Shown: positions 1,107-54,359 of the stretch, piece after piece
Position numbering within the stretch: the stretch's first letter is position 1
Layout: every line of letters begins with the position of its first letter
NCBI GenBank assembly: GCA_039794565.1
Contig: JAUQVX010000009.1
Coordinates: 1 to 64,000 of the forward strand
Direction: 5' to 3'
Length of the DNA stretch: 64,000 nt
From: Gloeomargarita sp. SRBZ-1_bins_9
GTDB lineage: Bacteria; Cyanobacteriota; Cyanobacteriia; Gloeomargaritales; Gloeomargaritaceae
Position numbers and translations under genes: made by a program
The notes under the pieces: model-generated
Told to the model about the DNA's origin: nothing
What the model saw: only the letters and a program-made list of their open reading frames with translations
Databases searched by the model: none

Positions 1107-1802
1107 GTGGCGGTTTTTCACTTACCCCCCGATTGGCCCACCACCCCTGAGGCCGCCCAGGCGTTACAGGCCCAATTGGCTGCCCAAGTACGCACCACCG
1201 ACGATTTGCCGCCGATTCATACCGTCGCTGGCGTGGATGTGGGGTTTGTGGAGAACAACCAAGTTGCCCGGGCCGCCATCGCCGTCCTCCGTTACCCCGA
1301 CTTGCAACTGCAAGACCAGGCCATCGCTTATTTGCCGGTGGACTTTCCCTACATTCCCGGGTTGCTGTCCTTTCGGGAAATCCCGGTCATTTTGGCCGCC
1401 CTCAACCAACTTACCCACCTGCCCGACCTGCTTTTGTGTGACGGTCAGGGCATCGCCCACCCCCGGCGCTGCGGTATCGCCTGTCACCTGGGGCTGATCA
1501 CGGACATTCCCGCCATCGGCGTGGCCAAATCCCGTCTGGTGGGCCATCACGCCCCCGTTCCCGACCGCCCCGGCGCCTGGCAACCCCTGATCGACCGCGG
1601 GGAAATCATCGGCGCGGCCCTGCGCACCCGCCCCGGCACCAACCCGCTGTACGTTTCCCCCGGTCACCGCATTAGCTTGACCACCAGCATCGCCCACGTC
1701 CTGAACTGCACCCGCCGCTACCGCCTGCCGGAAACCACCCGCCTGGCCCATAAACTCGCCTCCCGCCGCCCCACCCAACCCTACCAATGTGAACTTTTGT
1801 AA
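1107..1802 (+). CDS. nfi: Endonuclease V (deoxyinosine 3'-endonuclease)
   Basis: Endonuclease V cuts the second phosphodiester bond 3' of deoxyinosine and starts repair of deaminated adenine. The 231-residue protein has the family's motifs in order: VAGVDVGF with catalytic Asp44, the YIPG wedge near 82-85 followed by SFRE (Glu91), LLLCDGQGIAHPRRCG with Asp112 and His118, GVAKSRL near 158, and YVSPGHRISL near 197. Length is normal for bacterial Nfi. The start is GTG at 1107; the ATG at 1097 is in another frame. It is divergent from pilM and appears to be transcribed alone. Confidence 0.93.
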   Translation: MAVFHLPPDWPTTPEAAQALQAQLAAQVRTTDDLPPIHTVAGVDVGFVENNQVARAAIAVLRYPDLQLQDQAIAYLPVDFPYIPGLLSFREIPVILAALNQLTHLPDLLLCDGQGIAHPRRCGIACHLGLITDIPAIGVAKSRLVGHHAPVPDRPGAWQPLIDRGEIIGAALRTRPGTNPLYVSPGHRISLTTSIAHVLNCTRRYRLPETTRLAHKLASRRPTQPYQCELL

Positions 1803-1810
1803 CAAAAATG

Positions 1811-1838
1811 CCGTCAAACCGGCATGCCAGCTTGACGG
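1811..1838. other. Hairpin after nfi
   Basis: A perfect 7-bp stem (CCGTCAA / TTGACGG) begins 9 nt after the nfi stop codon. The loop contains the palindrome GGCATGCC. There is no U-tract on the plus side, so if it ends nfi transcripts it is not a canonical terminator. On the minus side a short T-run follows, but no minus-strand gene there would need it. Confidence 0.3.
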
Positions 1839-1885
1839 TTGGGGGATGGGGGGCTAAAGTAGCAATACCCGGGTATGAGTTGACT

Positions 1886-2194
1886 ATGTCAGACAAACAC
1901 AAGGTAACGGTTTATCTTTCTCCCGAACTCCATCGCCGGTTAAAGATTCAGGCGGCGGTAGTTGCGGAACCGATGTCGGCGATTGTGGAGCAGGCGGTGG
2001 CTTTTTACCTGTCCCATCCCCAGGTGGTGGAGGGCCATGGTGGTCAGACCCATGTGGTGCATCACTGTCCGGAGTGTCAAACGCCGGTGGTGTTACGGGA
2101 GGGGAATTTGGTGTCGGTCCAGGGTATGAGTGAGGCGGTGTTGCCGGACCCGGTGCCCAGTTTTGTTCCCCGCGAGGTGTTGATTCCCTGTTAA
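1886..2194 (+). CDS. Ribbon-helix-helix (CopG/Arc-like) protein
   Basis: A 102-residue protein starting MSDKHKVTVYLSPELHRRLK, the strand-helix opening of ribbon-helix-helix DNA-binding proteins, continuing SAIVEQAVAFYLSHP through the second helix. The C-terminal half carries a CPECQ motif and HVVHHCPEC, which may bind a metal, and ends FVPREVLIPC. I chose the ATG at 1886; an upstream in-frame ATG at 1808 would add 26 residues that do not look like family sequence and would start inside the nfi hairpin. The stop is 21 nt before ycf46, so the two are probably co-transcribed. The fold call is good; the target is unknown. Confidence 0.72.
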   Translation: MSDKHKVTVYLSPELHRRLKIQAAVVAEPMSAIVEQAVAFYLSHPQVVEGHGGQTHVVHHCPECQTPVVLREGNLVSVQGMSEAVLPDPVPSFVPREVLIPC

Positions 2195-2215
2195 GTTCGC
2201 TCAGGCGAGGCGCGT

Positions 2216-3733
2216 ATGTTGGATGAGTTGGTGACGTTGCTGAAGGCGCAGTACCCACTAATCTATGTGGTTACGCCGGAGGAGGAGCGGGCGGAGCAGT
2301 GGATTGTACAGGCGGCCCAGGAAACGCGGGCGGTACAGCGGGTTTTTACCTGGACGGTGACCCATGGTTTGTTGGAGTACGGTCACCCCCGCCACGCCAG
2401 TCAGCACCACAACACGGTTTCGCCGGAAACGGCTTTGGACTGGGTGATTCGCCACAAGGAACCGGGGGTGTTTATCTTCAAGGATTTGCACCCGTTTTTG
2501 GATTCGCCGGCGGTGAATCGGTGGTTGCGGGATGCGGTGGCTAGTTTCCGGGGCACCCGCAAGACGATTATTCTTCTGTCGCCGGTGTTGCAGGTGCCGG
2601 TGGAGTTGGAAAAGGAAGTGGCGGTGGTGGATTTTCCCCTGCCGACGCCGGAGCAGTTGGCCGAGGTGTTGAACCAGCAGTTGGTCCAGATGAAGCAGAC
2701 GCGGCTGGACAAGGCGACGCGGGAGAAATTGATTGCGGCGGCCCAGGGGCTAACGCGGGATGAGGCGGAAAAGGTGTTTCGCAAGGCCCAGGTGGTGGGG
2801 GGAGGGCGTCTGACGGAGGCGGAAGTGGGGATTGTGGCGGCGGAGAAGAAGCAGTTGATCCGGCGCAACGGCATTTTGGAGTACTTGGAGGCGGAAACGA
2901 CGCTGGATCAGGTGGGGGGGTTGGAGGAATTGAAGCGGTGGTTGCGGCAGCGGTCCCAGGCGTTTACGGAGCGGGCGCGGCAGTATGGTTTACCCCAGCC
3001 CAAGGGGATGTTGATCCTGGGTGTGCCGGGGTGTGGGAAGTCTTTGATTGCCAAGACCACGGCCCGGTTGTGGGAATTGCCCCTGCTGCGGCTGGACATG
3101 GGGCGGGTTTACGACGGTTCGATGGTGGGCCGGTCGGAGGCGAATTTACGCAGCGCCCTGAAGACGGCGGAGTCCATTGCCCCGGTGATTCTGTTTATTG
3201 ATGAGTTGGACAAGGCCTTTGCCGGGTCGGCGGGGTCAGCGGATAGTGATGGCGGCACTTCTTCCCGGATTTTCGGCACGTTTTTGACCTGGATGCAGGA
3301 CAAGACGTCACCGGTGTTTGTGATGGCGACAGCCAACCGGGTGGACAGGTTGCCGGGGGAATTCCTGCGTAAGGGGCGTTTTGATGAGATTTTCTTTGTG
3401 GATTTGCCCAACCTGGAGGAGCGCCGGGAGATTTTCCGTATCCATCTATCCCAGCGGCGGCGCGATATTGACCGGTTCGATTTGGATCAGTTGGCCCAGG
3501 TGACGGAGGGGTTTTCTGGGGCGGAAATCGAGCAGGCGGTGGTTGCGGCGATGTACGAGGCCTTTGCCCAGGACCGGGAGTTTACCCAGTTGGACATTAT
3601 TGCGGCGGTGAAAGCGACGTTGCCTCTTTCGCGGACGATGATGGAGCAGGTGACGGCCCTCCGGGATTGGGCCAAGCAGCGGGCGCGGCCGGCAGCGGCT
3701 TCAGTGGCGGAGTACCAGCGACTGGAGTTTTGA
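2216..3733 (+). CDS. ycf46: AAA+ ATPase, Ycf46 family
   Basis: A 505-residue member of the Ycf46 (slr0374-type) AAA+ family of cyanobacteria and red-lineage plastids. Residues 1-225 form the family's N-terminal domain, starting with LVTLLKAQYPLIYVVTPEE. The AAA+ module follows: Walker A GVPGCGKS at 269-276, Walker B ILFIDELD near 325-332, a sensor-1 region MATANRVDRLP, and the arginine-finger stretch LRKGRFDEIFFVDLP. Length and layout are normal. Slr0374 has been linked to inorganic carbon and stress responses in Synechocystis, but the molecular substrate is not established. It sits between an RHH regulator and ycf35. Confidence 0.9.
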   Translation: MLDELVTLLKAQYPLIYVVTPEEERAEQWIVQAAQETRAVQRVFTWTVTHGLLEYGHPRHASQHHNTVSPETALDWVIRHKEPGVFIFKDLHPFLDSPAVNRWLRDAVASFRGTRKTIILLSPVLQVPVELEKEVAVVDFPLPTPEQLAEVLNQQLVQMKQTRLDKATREKLIAAAQGLTRDEAEKVFRKAQVVGGGRLTEAEVGIVAAEKKQLIRRNGILEYLEAETTLDQVGGLEELKRWLRQRSQAFTERARQYGLPQPKGMLILGVPGCGKSLIAKTTARLWELPLLRLDMGRVYDGSMVGRSEANLRSALKTAESIAPVILFIDELDKAFAGSAGSADSDGGTSSRIFGTFLTWMQDKTSPVFVMATANRVDRLPGEFLRKGRFDEIFFVDLPNLEERREIFRIHLSQRRRDIDRFDLDQLAQVTEGFSGAEIEQAVVAAMYEAFAQDREFTQLDIIAAVKATLPLSRTMMEQVTALRDWAKQRARPAAASVAEYQRLEF

Positions 3734-29460: not shown

Positions 29461-30078
29461 GTCACCCGCGGGCAAAATGGCATCGGTCAGGTCGGCTCCG
29501 TCGGTGAGCACCTCGACCCAGTAGGCCTGGTAAAAGTTAGCGCCCTGGAGATTGGCCCCGCTCAAATCCGTGCCCAGCAACCGCGCACCTTGGCAGTGGC
29601 TCTGGCGCAAATCTGCTCCCTGCAGGTTGGCTCCCGTCAAATCCGCTTCCACCAATTGCGCCCCCCCGAATTCCGCCCCGATGGCCACACACTCCCGTAA
29701 ATTGGTGCCGAAGCAGCGCGCTTGATGCAGCAGTGCCCCGGTTAAATCGGCGCCCTGGAGACAGGCTGCTGCCAAATCGGCTTCCGGCAAACGCGCCCCC
29801 CCCAACTGGGCCTCTGTCAAATCCGCCCGCACCAGGTCCGCTTGGTCCAACGCCGCCCCCGTCAAATTCGCCTGCCGGAGATAGGCCCCACTCAAATTGG
29901 CCCGCCGCAACTTGGCCCCCCCCAGGTTCGCCCCCTGCAAATTCGCCCCCACCAAAATCCCGTCGCTCAGGTCAATTCCTCGCAAATCCTGGCCCGTCAA
30001 ATCGGCAAAGCTGAGATTGAGACCGGTAAAGTGGCGTTGTCCGGTTTCGTAGGCCAGCAACAGGTCCATGACATTCAT
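29398..30078 (-). CDS. Pentapeptide-repeat protein
   Basis: 226 residues, almost entirely A(D/N)LxG-type pentapeptide repeats from about residue 18 to 200 (for example [39 protein letters not shown]), forming a right-handed quadrilateral beta helix. A short N-terminal lead [17 protein letters not shown] precedes them, similar to the lead in the PATAN-REC fusion protein at 51.6 kb. No signal peptide. It overlaps ppc by 63 nt at the 3' end and the phosphoesterase gene by 4 nt at the start (ATGA), implying coupled translation with the latter. Confidence 0.9.
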
Positions 30079-31136
30079 ATCGCCAAAATAGCCTGGTTAT
30101 CGCCGGGGGGGCGGTCGCTGCAGGCCTCAAAAAATTCCCGCACCGGCGACGGCAAATCCGGGAACTCGAAGTAGGCATCCCCCCAGGCGATGTCCGGCCA
30201 GAAGTGGGCCAAGCGGGGCGCCAGAGCTGCGGCTTGATCCGGCGGCAGGTTCAAGGGCGGGTGCGTCAGCAACTGGGCGATAAATTGGGGGGAACGGCGT
30301 TCCATCCAGGCCCGGGCATCCGCCAGCAGGTGGGGCGCTTGGGGCAGGGCCGTCACCCGTTCGGTGGTGATGTGCATCGCCCCTTCCTCCCAGGTTACCA
30401 GGCGGTAGGCGTGGGGATAGGCCGCCAGCGAACCCGTCGTCACATCAAAAAACCCCTCCTCTTCGGCAATGTCCTGGATGTGCAAATGTCCCGTAAACAC
30501 CACCCGAATCCCGTGCCGCAACAGCAACCGGCGCAACGCCTGACGGTTCTCCAGCAAATAGCGCCGCCCCAACAGACTGCGGGCCTGGTTGGGAATGTGC
30601 TCACACACATTGTGATGCACCATGACCAGCGTATGCCGCCAGGGGGACTCCCGCAGCACTTGCTCCAGCCACTGCCACTGCTGGGGGTCAATGCAACCAA
30701 GCAGTTCCCCCTGGGCATCGAACTGGTTGGAGTTCAAACCGATCAACCCCACCCCCGGCAGGATTTCCTGGGCGTAGTAGAGCCGGTCTGTGTGGCGATA
30801 GCCCTGTTGCCGGTAGTACTCGGGAAATTCCGCCGGGGCAATGGCGCCGGGGTCAGGGGGAATGTCGTGGTTCCCCGGAATCACATAACAGGGAAAGGGC
30901 AATTGACTCAACCGCTTAGAAAGCCAGGTATGGTTAGCCGGTTCCCCGTGTTGGGTCAGATCGCCGGGGATGAGCAAAAAGTCCAACTCGTAACCGCTCA
31001 GGCGCGCCAGGACCGTTTCCAGCACCGGAATACTGTACTCCAGGCGGTGCAGGCGATGGGGGTAGTAGCGAAACGTCTCCGGCGTGGTGACGTGGGGGTC
31101 ACTTAAAACGGCAAAACGACAGATGGGCCTGGTCAT
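30075..31136 (-). CDS. Calcineurin-like metallophosphoesterase
   Basis: A 353-residue dimetal phosphoesterase. Motifs in order: FAVLSDPHV (D-x-H), PGDLTQHGE (GD), IPGNHDIPPDP (GNHD), MVHHNVCEHIP and FTGHLHIQD (GHxH). This pattern fits the CpdA/class III cyclic-nucleotide phosphodiesterase branch. Start at 31136; the open frame runs to 31304 but those 56 residues lack family likeness and overlap the antiporter gene. Substrate cannot be told. Confidence 0.86.
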   Translation of the reverse strand: MTRPICRFAVLSDPHVTTPETFRYYPHRLHRLEYSIPVLETVLARLSGYELDFLLIPGDLTQHGEPANHTWLSKRLSQLPFPCYVIPGNHDIPPDPGAIAPAEFPEYYRQQGYRHTDRLYYAQEILPGVGLIGLNSNQFDAQGELLGCIDPQQWQWLEQVLRESPWRHTLVMVHHNVCEHIPNQARSLLGRRYLLENRQALRRLLLRHGIRVVFTGHLHIQDIAEEEGFFDVTTGSLAAYPHAYRLVTWEEGAMHITTERVTALPQAPHLLADARAWMERRSPQFIAQLLTHPPLNLPPDQAAALAPRLAHFWPDIAWGDAYFEFPDLPSPVREFFEACSDRPPGDNQAILAI

Positions 31137-48979: not shown

Positions 48980-49558
48980 ATGGCGCAAGTAGCCATTGTT
49001 TACTTTTCTGGGATGGGGCATACGCACCTGATGGCCGAGGCCGTGGCTGCTGGTGCCCAGCAGGTACCCGGAACCACGGTGGAACTGTTGCGGATTACGG
49101 GGGAGCAGATTCACCAGGGGCGTTGGCAGGACGAAACCTACCTGGAGCGACTCCACCGAGCGGATGCCATTGTATTTGGCTCGCCGACCTATATGGGGGG
49201 GGTAGCTGCCCAATTCAAGGCGTTTTTAGATGCCACCAGTGGGATTTGGTTCCAACAGCGCTGGAAGGATAAGCTGGCGGGGGGATTCACCCATTCCAGT
49301 TCCCCCAGCGGCGATAAACAGGGCACGCTGCTGTACTTGGTCGTCCATGCGGCCCAGCACGGCATGGTCTGGGTGGGAGCAGCCGATTTACCCGACGCCA
49401 CAGGGGTCAATCGGTTAGGGTCATTTTTGGGGGTGATGGGGCAAAGTCCCATGCCGATGGATGGTCAACCCACCCTGGACCCCGGCGACCGGGAAACAGC
49501 CGTGCGTTATGGCCAGCGCATCGCTCAGTTGGCCCGGCGATGGACTAAGGCTGTGTAG
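48980..49558 (+). CDS. Flavodoxin-fold NAD(P)H:quinone oxidoreductase-like protein
   Basis: 192 residues of the WrbA/flavodoxin superfamily: VAIVYFSGMGHTHLMAEAV (phosphate loop), ADAIVFGSPTYMGGVAAQFKAFLDAT and a Ser-rich loop GGFTHSSSPSGDKQGTLLYL. The family binds FMN and reduces quinones. It is divergent from the Asr1405-type gene; a TTGCAC/TACGAT pair at 48924-48950 (15-nt spacing) could be its promoter. The stop overlaps a slipin remnant by 14 nt. Confidence 0.85.
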   Translation: MAQVAIVYFSGMGHTHLMAEAVAAGAQQVPGTTVELLRITGEQIHQGRWQDETYLERLHRADAIVFGSPTYMGGVAAQFKAFLDATSGIWFQQRWKDKLAGGFTHSSSPSGDKQGTLLYLVVHAAQHGMVWVGAADLPDATGVNRLGSFLGVMGQSPMPMDGQPTLDPGDRETAVRYGQRIAQLARRWTKAV

Positions 49559-50176
49559 AACGAAACCCTGTCGCTTTTGCGCGCCCCAGGGAGGCCAAGG
49601 CATGGCCCAACTCCATGGGGAAGGCTACTGGCCAGGCCGTTTCCGCTATGAGTTTCGCAGCCTCCACCGTCAGCCCCCAGTGGCGCACCTTTTCCCCCAC
49701 GATAGCGGCAATTTGCTCCTGGATTTTCTCCCGCTCCGAGAGCAGTTCATCCACAGGGAAGAGGCCCCCACCACGGGCGGATTGGGCGTACAGAGACGTG
49801 GCAAAGCGGTAGTCCTGCCCCCGAGTCACCGCCGGCGCCGTCAATTACCACCGGCACATTGTCCCGGCTGATGGCCCGCTGGCGGGGAGTGTTGAGTACC
49901 TGTACCCGCAGTCCACAAACCCCACGGTTTCCAGAATGGGTGGGACATAGAACACCCCCAGCCCCCGTACCTCGCTCAAGCGCCCAAAGAATTACCCCCT
50001 TTACTCGCACCCCAGCGACCCATGCCCACCAACGCTGTCACCGGCCAGGGCGTCCGTTCGGGAATTTTGGGTGTTCTCCAGGCCAGCAGCAACAATAGGT
50101 CGTCCCAGGGGTGGGCATACAGCCGCGCACCCTCTCGCTCCTGAATGATTGTCGGTACCTCTGTGGCAGTTACCAT
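49545..50176 (-). pseudogene. Broken slipin (SPFH/band 7) gene
   Basis: Slipins are membrane proteins with an N-terminal helix and SPFH domain. Pieces in order on the minus strand: LLLLLAWRTPKI near 50110, a basic GMGRWGASKG region near 50025, VILWALERGTG near 49990, LRVQVLNTPRQRAISRDNVPVVIDGAG near 49900-49850, then DYRFATSLYAQ and VDELLSEREKIQEQIAAIVGEK in another frame up to 49545. These match slipin landmarks (RGP..., RTQVLEVPPQEVITRDNV, DYRFAT, LDELLSEREKI), but at least two frameshifts and missing segments break the gene. Confidence 0.75.
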
Positions 50177-51580: not shown

Positions 51581-53353
51581 CTAGGTATCGACCACTTGGG
51601 GTAGGACAGCACCGGTCAAGTTGGCCCCCTCTAAATGGGTCTGTTCCATCTGGGCTTGCCAAAGGTTAGCGCCAGTAAGGTTGGCCCGTTCCAGGTTGGC
51701 CCGATGCAAAACTGCTCCGTGAAGGTTGGTAGCGTACAGGTTGGTTTGCCACAAATCAGCACCGGTGAAATTAGCACCGGCAGCCAGGGCTTCACTCAAA
51801 TTGGCCCCCCGTAGCCGGCTCTGGGAGAAGTTGGCGGAGCTAAGATTACTGTTGACCAATTGGGCGTTACTGAGGTTGGCCTGGCTGAGGTTGGCCCCGA
51901 TCAGATTGGCGCCGCTGAGGTTGGCTTCCCGCAAATTAGTTTTGACCAATTCGGCACCCATCAAATTAGCACCCGTCAGCTTGGCACCGGTCAGCAAACA
52001 ACCGCTTAAGTTCGCCAGCATCAGCTCTGCGCGACAGAGATTGATACCTTCTAGGTTGGCCCCCTGCAGGTTACAGCCAACTAGGCGCATCCCACTGAAA
52101 TCCCGCTCACCCGCAGCGTAGCGTTCCAGCAGTTGCCGGGCCTGGACATCCGGGTCCTCCAGATGGTCCTCCACCTGTTCCGGGTCCGGGGGGGCTGCAG
52201 GGATAGGTTCAAGGGGGATACCAACCTCCCTAGTCATCGGCCGGTGCAAGGGGGCGTAACGACCGACCAATTGCAATAATTCCTCGGGATTCAGCGGCTT
52301 TTTGAGGATTTCCGTAACCCCAGCCAAGCGGGCGCGGGTGCGGTTGACAATGCCCTCATGGGCCGTGATCAGAAAAATCGGCGTATCCCGAAAAGTGGAT
52401 GTTTTGCGTAGTAAAGCACACAGTTCATAGCCGTTGACATGGGGCATCACCCAGTCCATGAGGATGACATCCGGTTTCGCCTCCAGCAGGGCGGCCATCT
52501 GGGTCATCGGTTCCGCCAGCGTCATCACCCGATAACCGGCGCGGGCCAGGGTGCCTTCCACAACTTTGAGCATCACCGGGCTGTCGTCCAGACAAGCAAT
52601 CAGGGGCTGGTCAGGGTTGTCTGGGGTGCGGACAGAGCTAGATTCCTGCACTGGGGCCGGCAAATCCGGTATCACCTGCAGTTCCACCCACCCCTGTTGT
52701 ACCCACCGCACAATCGGCCCGACGGTCTGCAGCACTGACTTGCGGGTTAACCCAACCAAATCCCAGAGGGTCTGTTGGCCCCTAAGCCAAGCCACCCACT
52801 GTTGATCAGGGATACTGTCCGGCCGGCAGGCTATGGGAGCCAAATCAGGGGATAAGTGTTTGGCCACATGCTGCAACTGCCCCCAGCCTGCCGCTTGCCA
52901 TTGGTGCTGCAACTGGGCGACCTCCTCGAGCACCCGTTCCACCTGCAACAGGGCAATTTGACTGCCCAAACCCTGGCCTGCCTGGAAACGATAGGTCACC
53001 TGGTCCTGGGCAAGGATGGTAAACAACACCTCCAAAACGCTATTCCAGATGACGGCTTTGGCCTGAGCCGGCGTCAAACGTCCCTGCTTGGTTCCCTGCA
53101 CCAACGCCCAATACTCCCACGGCTGGGTGGCTTCTAAAGCCGACCAATCCGGTTGAAATTGGGGACAGTGAGCCTTCAGGCTACGATACCAGCGCCGCAC
53201 CCGGTGGCTCCCCCCGGTGGCGTACAGCAAGCGGCCTAGGAAGAAATACAACCACCATCGCTGTCCCCCCGCTTGCACATGCAGGGTGCCCGTTGCTTGC
53301 CGTTGCTGACAGGCCAGGAGTTCCTGCTTGAAATCTTGGTTCACACCAACCAT
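51581..53353 (-). CDS. PATAN-REC-pentapeptide fusion protein
   Basis: 590 residues. PATAN domain (about 8-230) nearly identical in the segment DWSALEATQPWEYWALVQGT to its downstream neighbour; receiver (250-370) with full set Asp256/Asp257, phospho-Asp300 in VILMDWVMPHVNGYE, LITAHEG Thr and Lys351; linker with Pro/Glu; then pentapeptide repeats from about 418 to 585 (SGMRLVGCNLQGANLEGINL and so on). The helix would present a surface controlled by phosphorylation. This domain order is unusual. It begins 40 nt after the kinase stop, so they are likely one operon. Confidence 0.9.
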   Translation of the reverse strand: MVGVNQDFKQELLACQQRQATGTLHVQAGGQRWWLYFFLGRLLYATGGSHRVRRWYRSLKAHCPQFQPDWSALEATQPWEYWALVQGTKQGRLTPAQAKAVIWNSVLEVLFTILAQDQVTYRFQAGQGLGSQIALLQVERVLEEVAQLQHQWQAAGWGQLQHVAKHLSPDLAPIACRPDSIPDQQWVAWLRGQQTLWDLVGLTRKSVLQTVGPIVRWVQQGWVELQVIPDLPAPVQESSSVRTPDNPDQPLIACLDDSPVMLKVVEGTLARAGYRVMTLAEPMTQMAALLEAKPDVILMDWVMPHVNGYELCALLRKTSTFRDTPIFLITAHEGIVNRTRARLAGVTEILKKPLNPEELLQLVGRYAPLHRPMTREVGIPLEPIPAAPPDPEQVEDHLEDPDVQARQLLERYAAGERDFSGMRLVGCNLQGANLEGINLCRAELMLANLSGCLLTGAKLTGANLMGAELVKTNLREANLSGANLIGANLSQANLSNAQLVNSNLSSANFSQSRLRGANLSEALAAGANFTGADLWQTNLYATNLHGAVLHRANLERANLTGANLWQAQMEQTHLEGANLTGAVLPQVVDT

Positions 53354-53393: not shown

Positions 53394-54359
53394 CTAAACC
53401 GGTTTACTATGTCCCAGTTCCTGGGCAGAGTGCGCACGGGCCGCCCGGGGCAACTCCAAAACCAACCCCTGGTCCAACAACAACCGCCCCTGGATGCGCT
53501 CCACCAGCATCTGGGTGATGGCCAGTCCCATACTGGGTCGCGTCGGCCCCAAGGGATACCACAATTCCCCCAGCTCTAACTCCGGTACACCAATCTGCAA
53601 ACCACTGCCATCGCGCCAGGAACGCACCTGCACCTGGGCTTGCCCTGGGGTGTGGGTCAAGGCATAGTCCAACACCTGCACCAGAACCGGCACAAGCAAC
53701 TTCGGGTCCGTCCACACCGGCGGTACATCCTGAATGCGCCATACCACCCGTTCGCCACCCTGCCGTCCCTCCAACTCCTGCATGACCTCCGGCACCAAAT
53801 CCGCCAGGTACACGGGCCGGAAATGCCCCGGCGTCATCTGCCAGCGGGCCACCTGCAACACCGTCTCGATCAAATTGGTCAACTGCTGCACCTGCCCCTG
53901 CACAATTTCCAGAAAGTGACGGATTTGCTCCCGGCTCAAGCGGTCCTGGGCCTGCAACAAGGTTTCGACAAAACCCTTGATGCTGGTCAGGGGGGTGCGC
54001 AATTCGTGGCTGACGGTGGCCATGAATTCCTCCTGGGACTGCTCCAAATCCCGACTGTGCTCCGGAATAAAACTCCACACCAACCCGGTGAGGTTCGGCT
54101 GGGTGAGGGGCCGCACCGTGACCCGCATCACCAACCAATTGTCCTGCTGGCCTAAACGCACCCGCCCCCCGGCGTCGCGCCAGCGTAAATAGGGCGTCAA
54201 TTCCGGCCAAAACTCAGTAATGCCATGGCCCTGGAGGCGCTGGGGATCAAAGCAAAACCAATCGGCCATGGCCCAATTGCAGTGCTCAATCCGCCCCTGC
54301 TCTGTGGTCAACACCACCCCAATCGGTAGACAATTGATAAGGTCGGCAGCCAAGGTCAT
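53394..54359 (-). CDS. PAS-HisKA protein with degenerate ATPase domain
   Basis: 321 residues. PAS-like sensor (about 5-100); HisKA with an intact His118 in MATVSHELRTPLTSIKGF; then an HATPase-like region. In the N-box the sequence is VLVQVLDYALTHTP where kinases have NLLxNALKYTP: the key Asn is Tyr232. No DxGxG (G1) motif is present and only SMGLAI resembles the G2 box. ATP binding therefore looks lost. It would serve as a phosphotransfer hub or dimerising partner rather than a kinase. First of three signalling genes on this strand. Confidence 0.85.
   Translation of the reverse strand: MTLAADLINCLPIGVVLTTEQGRIEHCNWAMADWFCFDPQRLQGHGITEFWPELTPYLRWRDAGGRVRLGQQDNWLVMRVTVRPLTQPNLTGLVWSFIPEHSRDLEQSQEEFMATVSHELRTPLTSIKGFVETLLQAQDRLSREQIRHFLEIVQGQVQQLTNLIETVLQVARWQMTPGHFRPVYLADLVPEVMQELEGRQGGERVVWRIQDVPPVWTDPKLLVPVLVQVLDYALTHTPGQAQVQVRSWRDGSGLQIGVPELELGELWYPLGPTRPSMGLAITQMLVERIQGRLLLDQGLVLELPRAARAHSAQELGHSKPV

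Follow-up and report, generated by a model that had tools for sequence, protein, structure and literature searches.

The stretch of DNA analyzed here (the window) comprises 64,000 nucleotides of a 2.22 Mb Gloeomargarita genome and carries a gene in which a PATAN (DUF4388) region, a receiver (REC) domain and a pentapeptide-repeat β-helix follow one another (Table 1). Pfam matches to DUF4388 (PF14332; residues 16–153, 1.8e-11, 44.6 bits versus a cut-off of 25), Response_reg (residues 252–363, 2.7e-21) and Pentapeptide (4e-44) all exceed their curated cut-offs within one intact open reading frame, thus establishing that the PATAN-REC-pentapeptide fusion proposed in a preliminary description of this DNA is real. 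The gene lies between a histidine kinase homolog with a degenerate ATP-binding domain and a PATAN-REC duplicate that has no pentapeptides. Promoter and terminator scans returned only chance-level signals.

Table 1. Features of the fusion locus, with positions in the window.
Feature	Position	Strand	Basis
PATAN-REC-pentapeptide fusion gene, 590 aa, ATG start	51581..53353	-	Uninterrupted ORF and Pfam; relatives in 8/8 genomes of the order
PATAN/DUF4388 region with helical insertion, residues 1–235	52649..53353	-	Pfam PF14332 at 16–153; boundaries set by the analyst
Receiver domain, residues 252–366	52256..52600	-	Pfam PF00072; D256, D257, D300, T330, K352
Variable linker, residues 367–400	52154..52255	-	dN/dS 0.21–0.94, 5/5 pairs
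Pentapeptide-repeat β-helix with N-terminal capping helix, residues 401–587	51593..52153	-	Pfam, register, AlphaFold2, PDB match
PAS-HisKA histidine kinase homolog, degenerate ATP-binding domain, 321 aa	53394..54359	-	HisKA 5.4e-18; motif alignment
CA (HATPase_c) remnant of the kinase homolog, residues 180–305	53445..53822	-	Box loss 7/7; dN/dS 0.08–0.17, 5/5 pairs
PATAN-REC duplicate without pentapeptides, damaged receiver, 422 aa	50186..51454	-	D257→A, T330→A; Pfam

The phosphorylation pocket is intact, as Asp256, Asp257, Asp300, Thr330 and Lys352 are unchanged in all eight aligned fusions. The three aspartates and the threonine of LITAHEG, a motif that begins at residue 328, had been named correctly, but the lysine had been placed one position too early, at 351: Lys352, the second lysine of Lys-Lys-Pro, is invariant, whereas residue 351 is Gln or His in both copies from the sister-genus genome G007. 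The earlier view that this protein is unlike ordinary response regulators is upheld. A frameshift or misassembly near residues 390–410 is excluded, since receiver and helix share one open frame in 8/8 genomes of the order, including the single-contig genomes G001 and G005; with the same joint found in every genome, an artifact joining two genes was rejected. In G002, a 331-residue ORF with a likeness, by eye, to transposases (L061:7789–8781) splits the fusion gene at a point within REC that precedes the REC–helix joint.

The order was sampled as seven Gloeomargarita genomes and G007, all of which carry the fusion. When the best three or five candidates per genome were scored in 388 cyanobacterial genomes, matches that extend from REC into the helix came from these eight alone and from none of the other 380; within this sample, the fusion is restricted to the Gloeomargarita order. 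A contig scan for relatives returned two loci: L036, from Gloeomargarita sp. SKYG116, is a true relative, and L037 matches by pentapeptides only. None of the titles and abstract openings found by a literature search of open-licence papers describes a PATAN-REC-pentapeptide protein, and the search found nothing for DUF4388 with pentapeptide or for Gloeomargarita with phototaxis. G007 has two fusions, a 594-residue orthologue and an 1150-residue PATAN-REC-pentapeptide-PAS-GGDEF-EAL protein (G007b; L067:2785–6234), the latter of which ties the PATAN-REC-pentapeptide module to c-di-GMP. Owing to its long branch, the position of G007b is uncertain in our tree, which was built without named PATAN reference sequences and does not imply orthology to PixE, PixG or PatA.

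The preliminary assignment of a pentapeptide helix to residues 418–585 agrees closely with our boundaries (approximately 417–586), and Leu, Phe, Met or Ile occupies the center at 34 of the 37 register positions between residues 405 and 590. A full-length AlphaFold2 model from four rows has a mean pLDDT of 52.6, with PATAN and REC mostly below 50; the helix alone is modeled well, with block means mostly of 73–88 and two blocks at 60–63. The best solved matches of the helix include 2j8k (TM-score on target 0.75) and 3du1, Np275-276 and HetL are among its best solved relatives, and the Alr5209 model scores 125.5 bits against a cut-off of 125. Np275/Np276, HetL (All3740) and Alr5209 share the N-terminal cap and the A(D/N)LXX helix but stand alone, whereas here the helix is fused behind a receiver. 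Because the cap is complete (helix 401–413 in the model) and followed by approximately 8.5 coils, as in Np275 and HetL, a whole free-standing pentapeptide protein seems to have been captured. Pentapeptide tails also occur on cyanobacterial signaling proteins of the SpkB type, although these are Ser/Thr kinases and not two-component receivers; SpkB, a kinase-pentapeptide protein, is reported to affect motility (PMC2176072).

It had been suggested that the helix could mimic DNA or bind a partner. A Qnr/MfpA-like mimic that is exposed on phosphorylation and acts on gyrase or another DNA-binding protein would share its fold class with the helix, as MfpA and QnrB do. The helix surface of such mimics is strongly acidic, whereas residues 405–590 carry a net charge of −1 in the window protein and of −3 to −8 in seven relatives, with the outward faces of the window protein at −1 to 0 and the best-conserved face neutral. 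The NCBIfam Qnr model, moreover, stays far under its cut-off (59.7 bits versus 240), and Np275 and HetL match better. DNA mimicry is therefore very improbable.

Outward positions that are invariant in seven sequences are unevenly distributed, with 18/27 on face 2, 13/27 on face 1, 4/24 on face 3 and 8/24 on face 4 (chi-square P 0.0026; best-face shuffle P ~0.016; positions taken as independent), which amounts to a modest conservation signal on face 2. This face has a net charge of 0 or −1 in all eight sequences and exposes M445, L446, I485, L523, W565, Q566, V583 and P585, and we read it as protein-binding rather than DNA-mimicking. HetL is described as a protein–protein binder that uses faces 2 and 3 (PMC7476756). 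A phosphorylation-controlled β-helix that binds a partner would remain the likeliest functional class for the fusion.

Pairwise Nei–Gojobori dN/dS values (five pairs per domain, with dS high or saturated in several) are 0.04–0.09 for REC (5/5 pairs), 0.04–0.10 for the helix (4/5 pairs, one saturated) and 0.08–0.12 for PATAN (3/5 pairs, two saturated). REC and the helix are under strong purifying selection and the linker between them is not; its sequence is unconserved (19–45% identity), so that a tether fits better than rigid allosteric coupling. The helix could instead be a mere rigid spacer or stabilizer with no partner of its own, and it does sit between REC and PAS-GGDEF-EAL in G007b, in an order whose genomes contain numerous pentapeptide genes. 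In the main protein, however, the helix is terminal and thus spaces nothing, and its conservation equals that of REC (77–83% identity within the genus, 182 aligned residues without gaps) and is uneven among the faces. We regard a spacer as unlikely.

The kinase homolog ends 40 bp before the fusion in the window. It adjoins the fusion upstream and on the same strand in five of the eight genomes (G000, G001, G003, G004 and G006), with the two open frames anywhere from 312 bp apart (G006) to overlapping by 4 bp, and is not adjacent in G002, G005 and G007. All seven copies from the genus keep the phospho-acceptor histidine (HELRTPLTS). In the same copies the N-box Asn is replaced by Tyr, the G1 (DxGxG) and F boxes are gone and G2 is altered, whereas all four boxes are present in the G007 kinase and in 9/9 aligned outgroup copies. 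HATPase_c is matched at 8.7e-24 in the G007 orthologue versus 0.0084 at best in Gloeomargarita, with no match at E≤0.01 in the window homolog. Judged by these motifs, the kinase homolog seems to have no working ATP site in Gloeomargarita. A fold model from two rows (pLDDT 39) was discarded. Upstream of the kinase homolog, loci L060, L062, L063, L065 and L078, in five genomes, have a DppB-like ABC permease gene (named by eye), which is replaced by a transaldolase gene in the window's genome.

Alternatively, the kinase homolog might have nothing to do with the fusion and be either in decay or still active as a kinase through an ATP site of unusual form. Adjacency in just 5/8 genomes would fit this explanation, as would weak sub-threshold HATPase_c similarity in 5/7 genus copies; yet 7/7 copies have an uninterrupted open frame on which purifying selection acts, also in the CA remnant, and none of the seven retains the canonical N-box Asn or DxGxG. 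This explanation is rather unlikely, although it deserves more weight than a spacer role for the helix. An OmpR/PhoB-type regulator gene adjoins the kinase in 8/11 outgroup loci and in G007. This regulator is kept in all eight genomes of the order (85–88% identity with the G007 sequence as query) and sits apart from the kinase in the seven Gloeomargarita genomes, which suggests that the kinase has lost the neighborhood of its old partner as well as its ATP site. Spo0B of Bacillus is a histidine kinase-like phosphotransferase that keeps its histidine without a usable ATP site. The anatomy of the kinase homolog resembles that of Caulobacter ChpT, which is described as having a histidine kinase-like architecture and a retained histidine but no use of ATP (PMC3433190). 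Unlike either protein, the kinase homolog carries a PAS domain at its N-terminus and derives from a PhoR-like kinase of cyanobacteria.

The duplicate lies downstream of the fusion in three of the eight genomes (G000, G003 and G004). Its receiver has Ala in place of Asp257 in 3/3 copies and in place of Thr330 in 2/3, and in the tree it is nested inside the fusion clade of the genus (100/100). Beyond it, SPFH/Band 7 remains occupy window positions 49548–50149 (−) in three reading frames with a stop and are, by their sequence, a pseudogene; the corresponding ORF of G003 is intact (332 codons, L062:3214–4209). In 6/8 genomes, a 296–313-residue pentapeptide gene and another PATAN-REC gene form a divergent pair (for example, L033:204–1121 (−) for the pentapeptide gene and 1450–2610 (+) for PATAN-REC). 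This pairing lends weak support, as the genomes are rich in pentapeptide genes and related by descent. A further pentapeptide stretch at window positions 29470–30102 (−) contains one in-frame TAA stop.

On the strength of its domains, the fusion is best read as belonging with PixE, PixG and LsiR, PATAN-CheY regulators whose target is the type IV pilus motor. Like these Synechocystis proteins, it has PATAN followed by REC with an intact pocket; it differs from them in its C-terminal pentapeptide helix and in lying beside a kinase-dead PAS-HisKA protein instead of in a che/tax operon. PixE is reported to bind PilB1 (PMC7690835), and PixG to bind PilC and PilB1 when phosphorylated (PMC12288463). 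The best PATAN-REC matches outside the order are proteins of approximately 400 residues, and several PATAN-REC homologs lie directly upstream of CheY- or CheW-like ORFs (L038–L041, L057 and L059; by eye). The window's genome has strong T2SSE ATPase matches in frames of 681, 370 and 457 residues, which are candidates for the motor ATPase, and seven CheW matches.

An alternative is a PatA-like regulator of division or the cell pole, in which PATAN-REC would act on the divisome while a DNA-binding regulator would be the target of the HetL-like arm. An interaction with the divisome is reported for PatA, itself a PATAN-REC protein (PMC7380572), HetL is reported to bind HetR (PMC7476756), and the fusion unites one domain of each kind. 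The HetL equivalog model (NCBIfam penta_HetL), however, gives 110.7 bits where its cut-off is 260, and we consider this alternative quite improbable. A HetR_C search of the window's genome gave no match, and its control matched nowhere either.

We tentatively favor, with somewhat short of even confidence, a PixE/PixG-like pilus-motor regulator that carries a protein-docking arm and is fed or drained of phosphate by a kinase-dead partner. Favoring it are the binding of the motor by PixE and PixG, the binding of proteins by HetL and the effect of SpkB on motility; it is weakened by the kinase homologs that are not adjacent in G002, G005 and G007 and by the 312 bp gap in G006. A mechanism is proposed where a complete Np275/HetL-type pentapeptide protein was captured as the C-terminal arm of a PATAN-CheY regulator. 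PATAN-REC would keep its pilus-motor task, with the PATAN part docking on PilB/PilC, while the helix would use its conserved face 2 to bind a further protein and carry it to the motor or pole. Whether motor and further protein come together would depend on the phosphorylation of Asp300. Phosphate could reach the receiver from a separate kinase, for example one of the CheA-type systems encoded in the genome, and the PAS-DHp neighbor, presumably unable to use ATP, may serve the receiver as a phosphotransferase, phosphatase or docking sensor.

More speculatively, a PhoR-like kinase of Gloeomargarita may have parted from its OmpR-type partner and been deprived of its ATP site, and may now serve a pilus-type regulator with a β-helix output as a phosphotransferase or phosphatase under PAS control; the helix-less, damaged-receiver duplicate would be a possible decoy in the hot-spring species. 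We hold this scenario with little confidence; if true, both members of this two-component pair would depart from the textbook. Gloeomargarita is considered the nearest extant relative of plastids. Its kinase homolog presents an apparent ATP-site loss within one genus in a gene that is still under selection, with intact sister-genus copies for comparison. Cyanobacteria have many pentapeptide proteins, for most of which no partner is known, and the lineage-wide fusion of one of them to a class of regulators whose partners in the pilus motor are known provides a handle on what that one binds.
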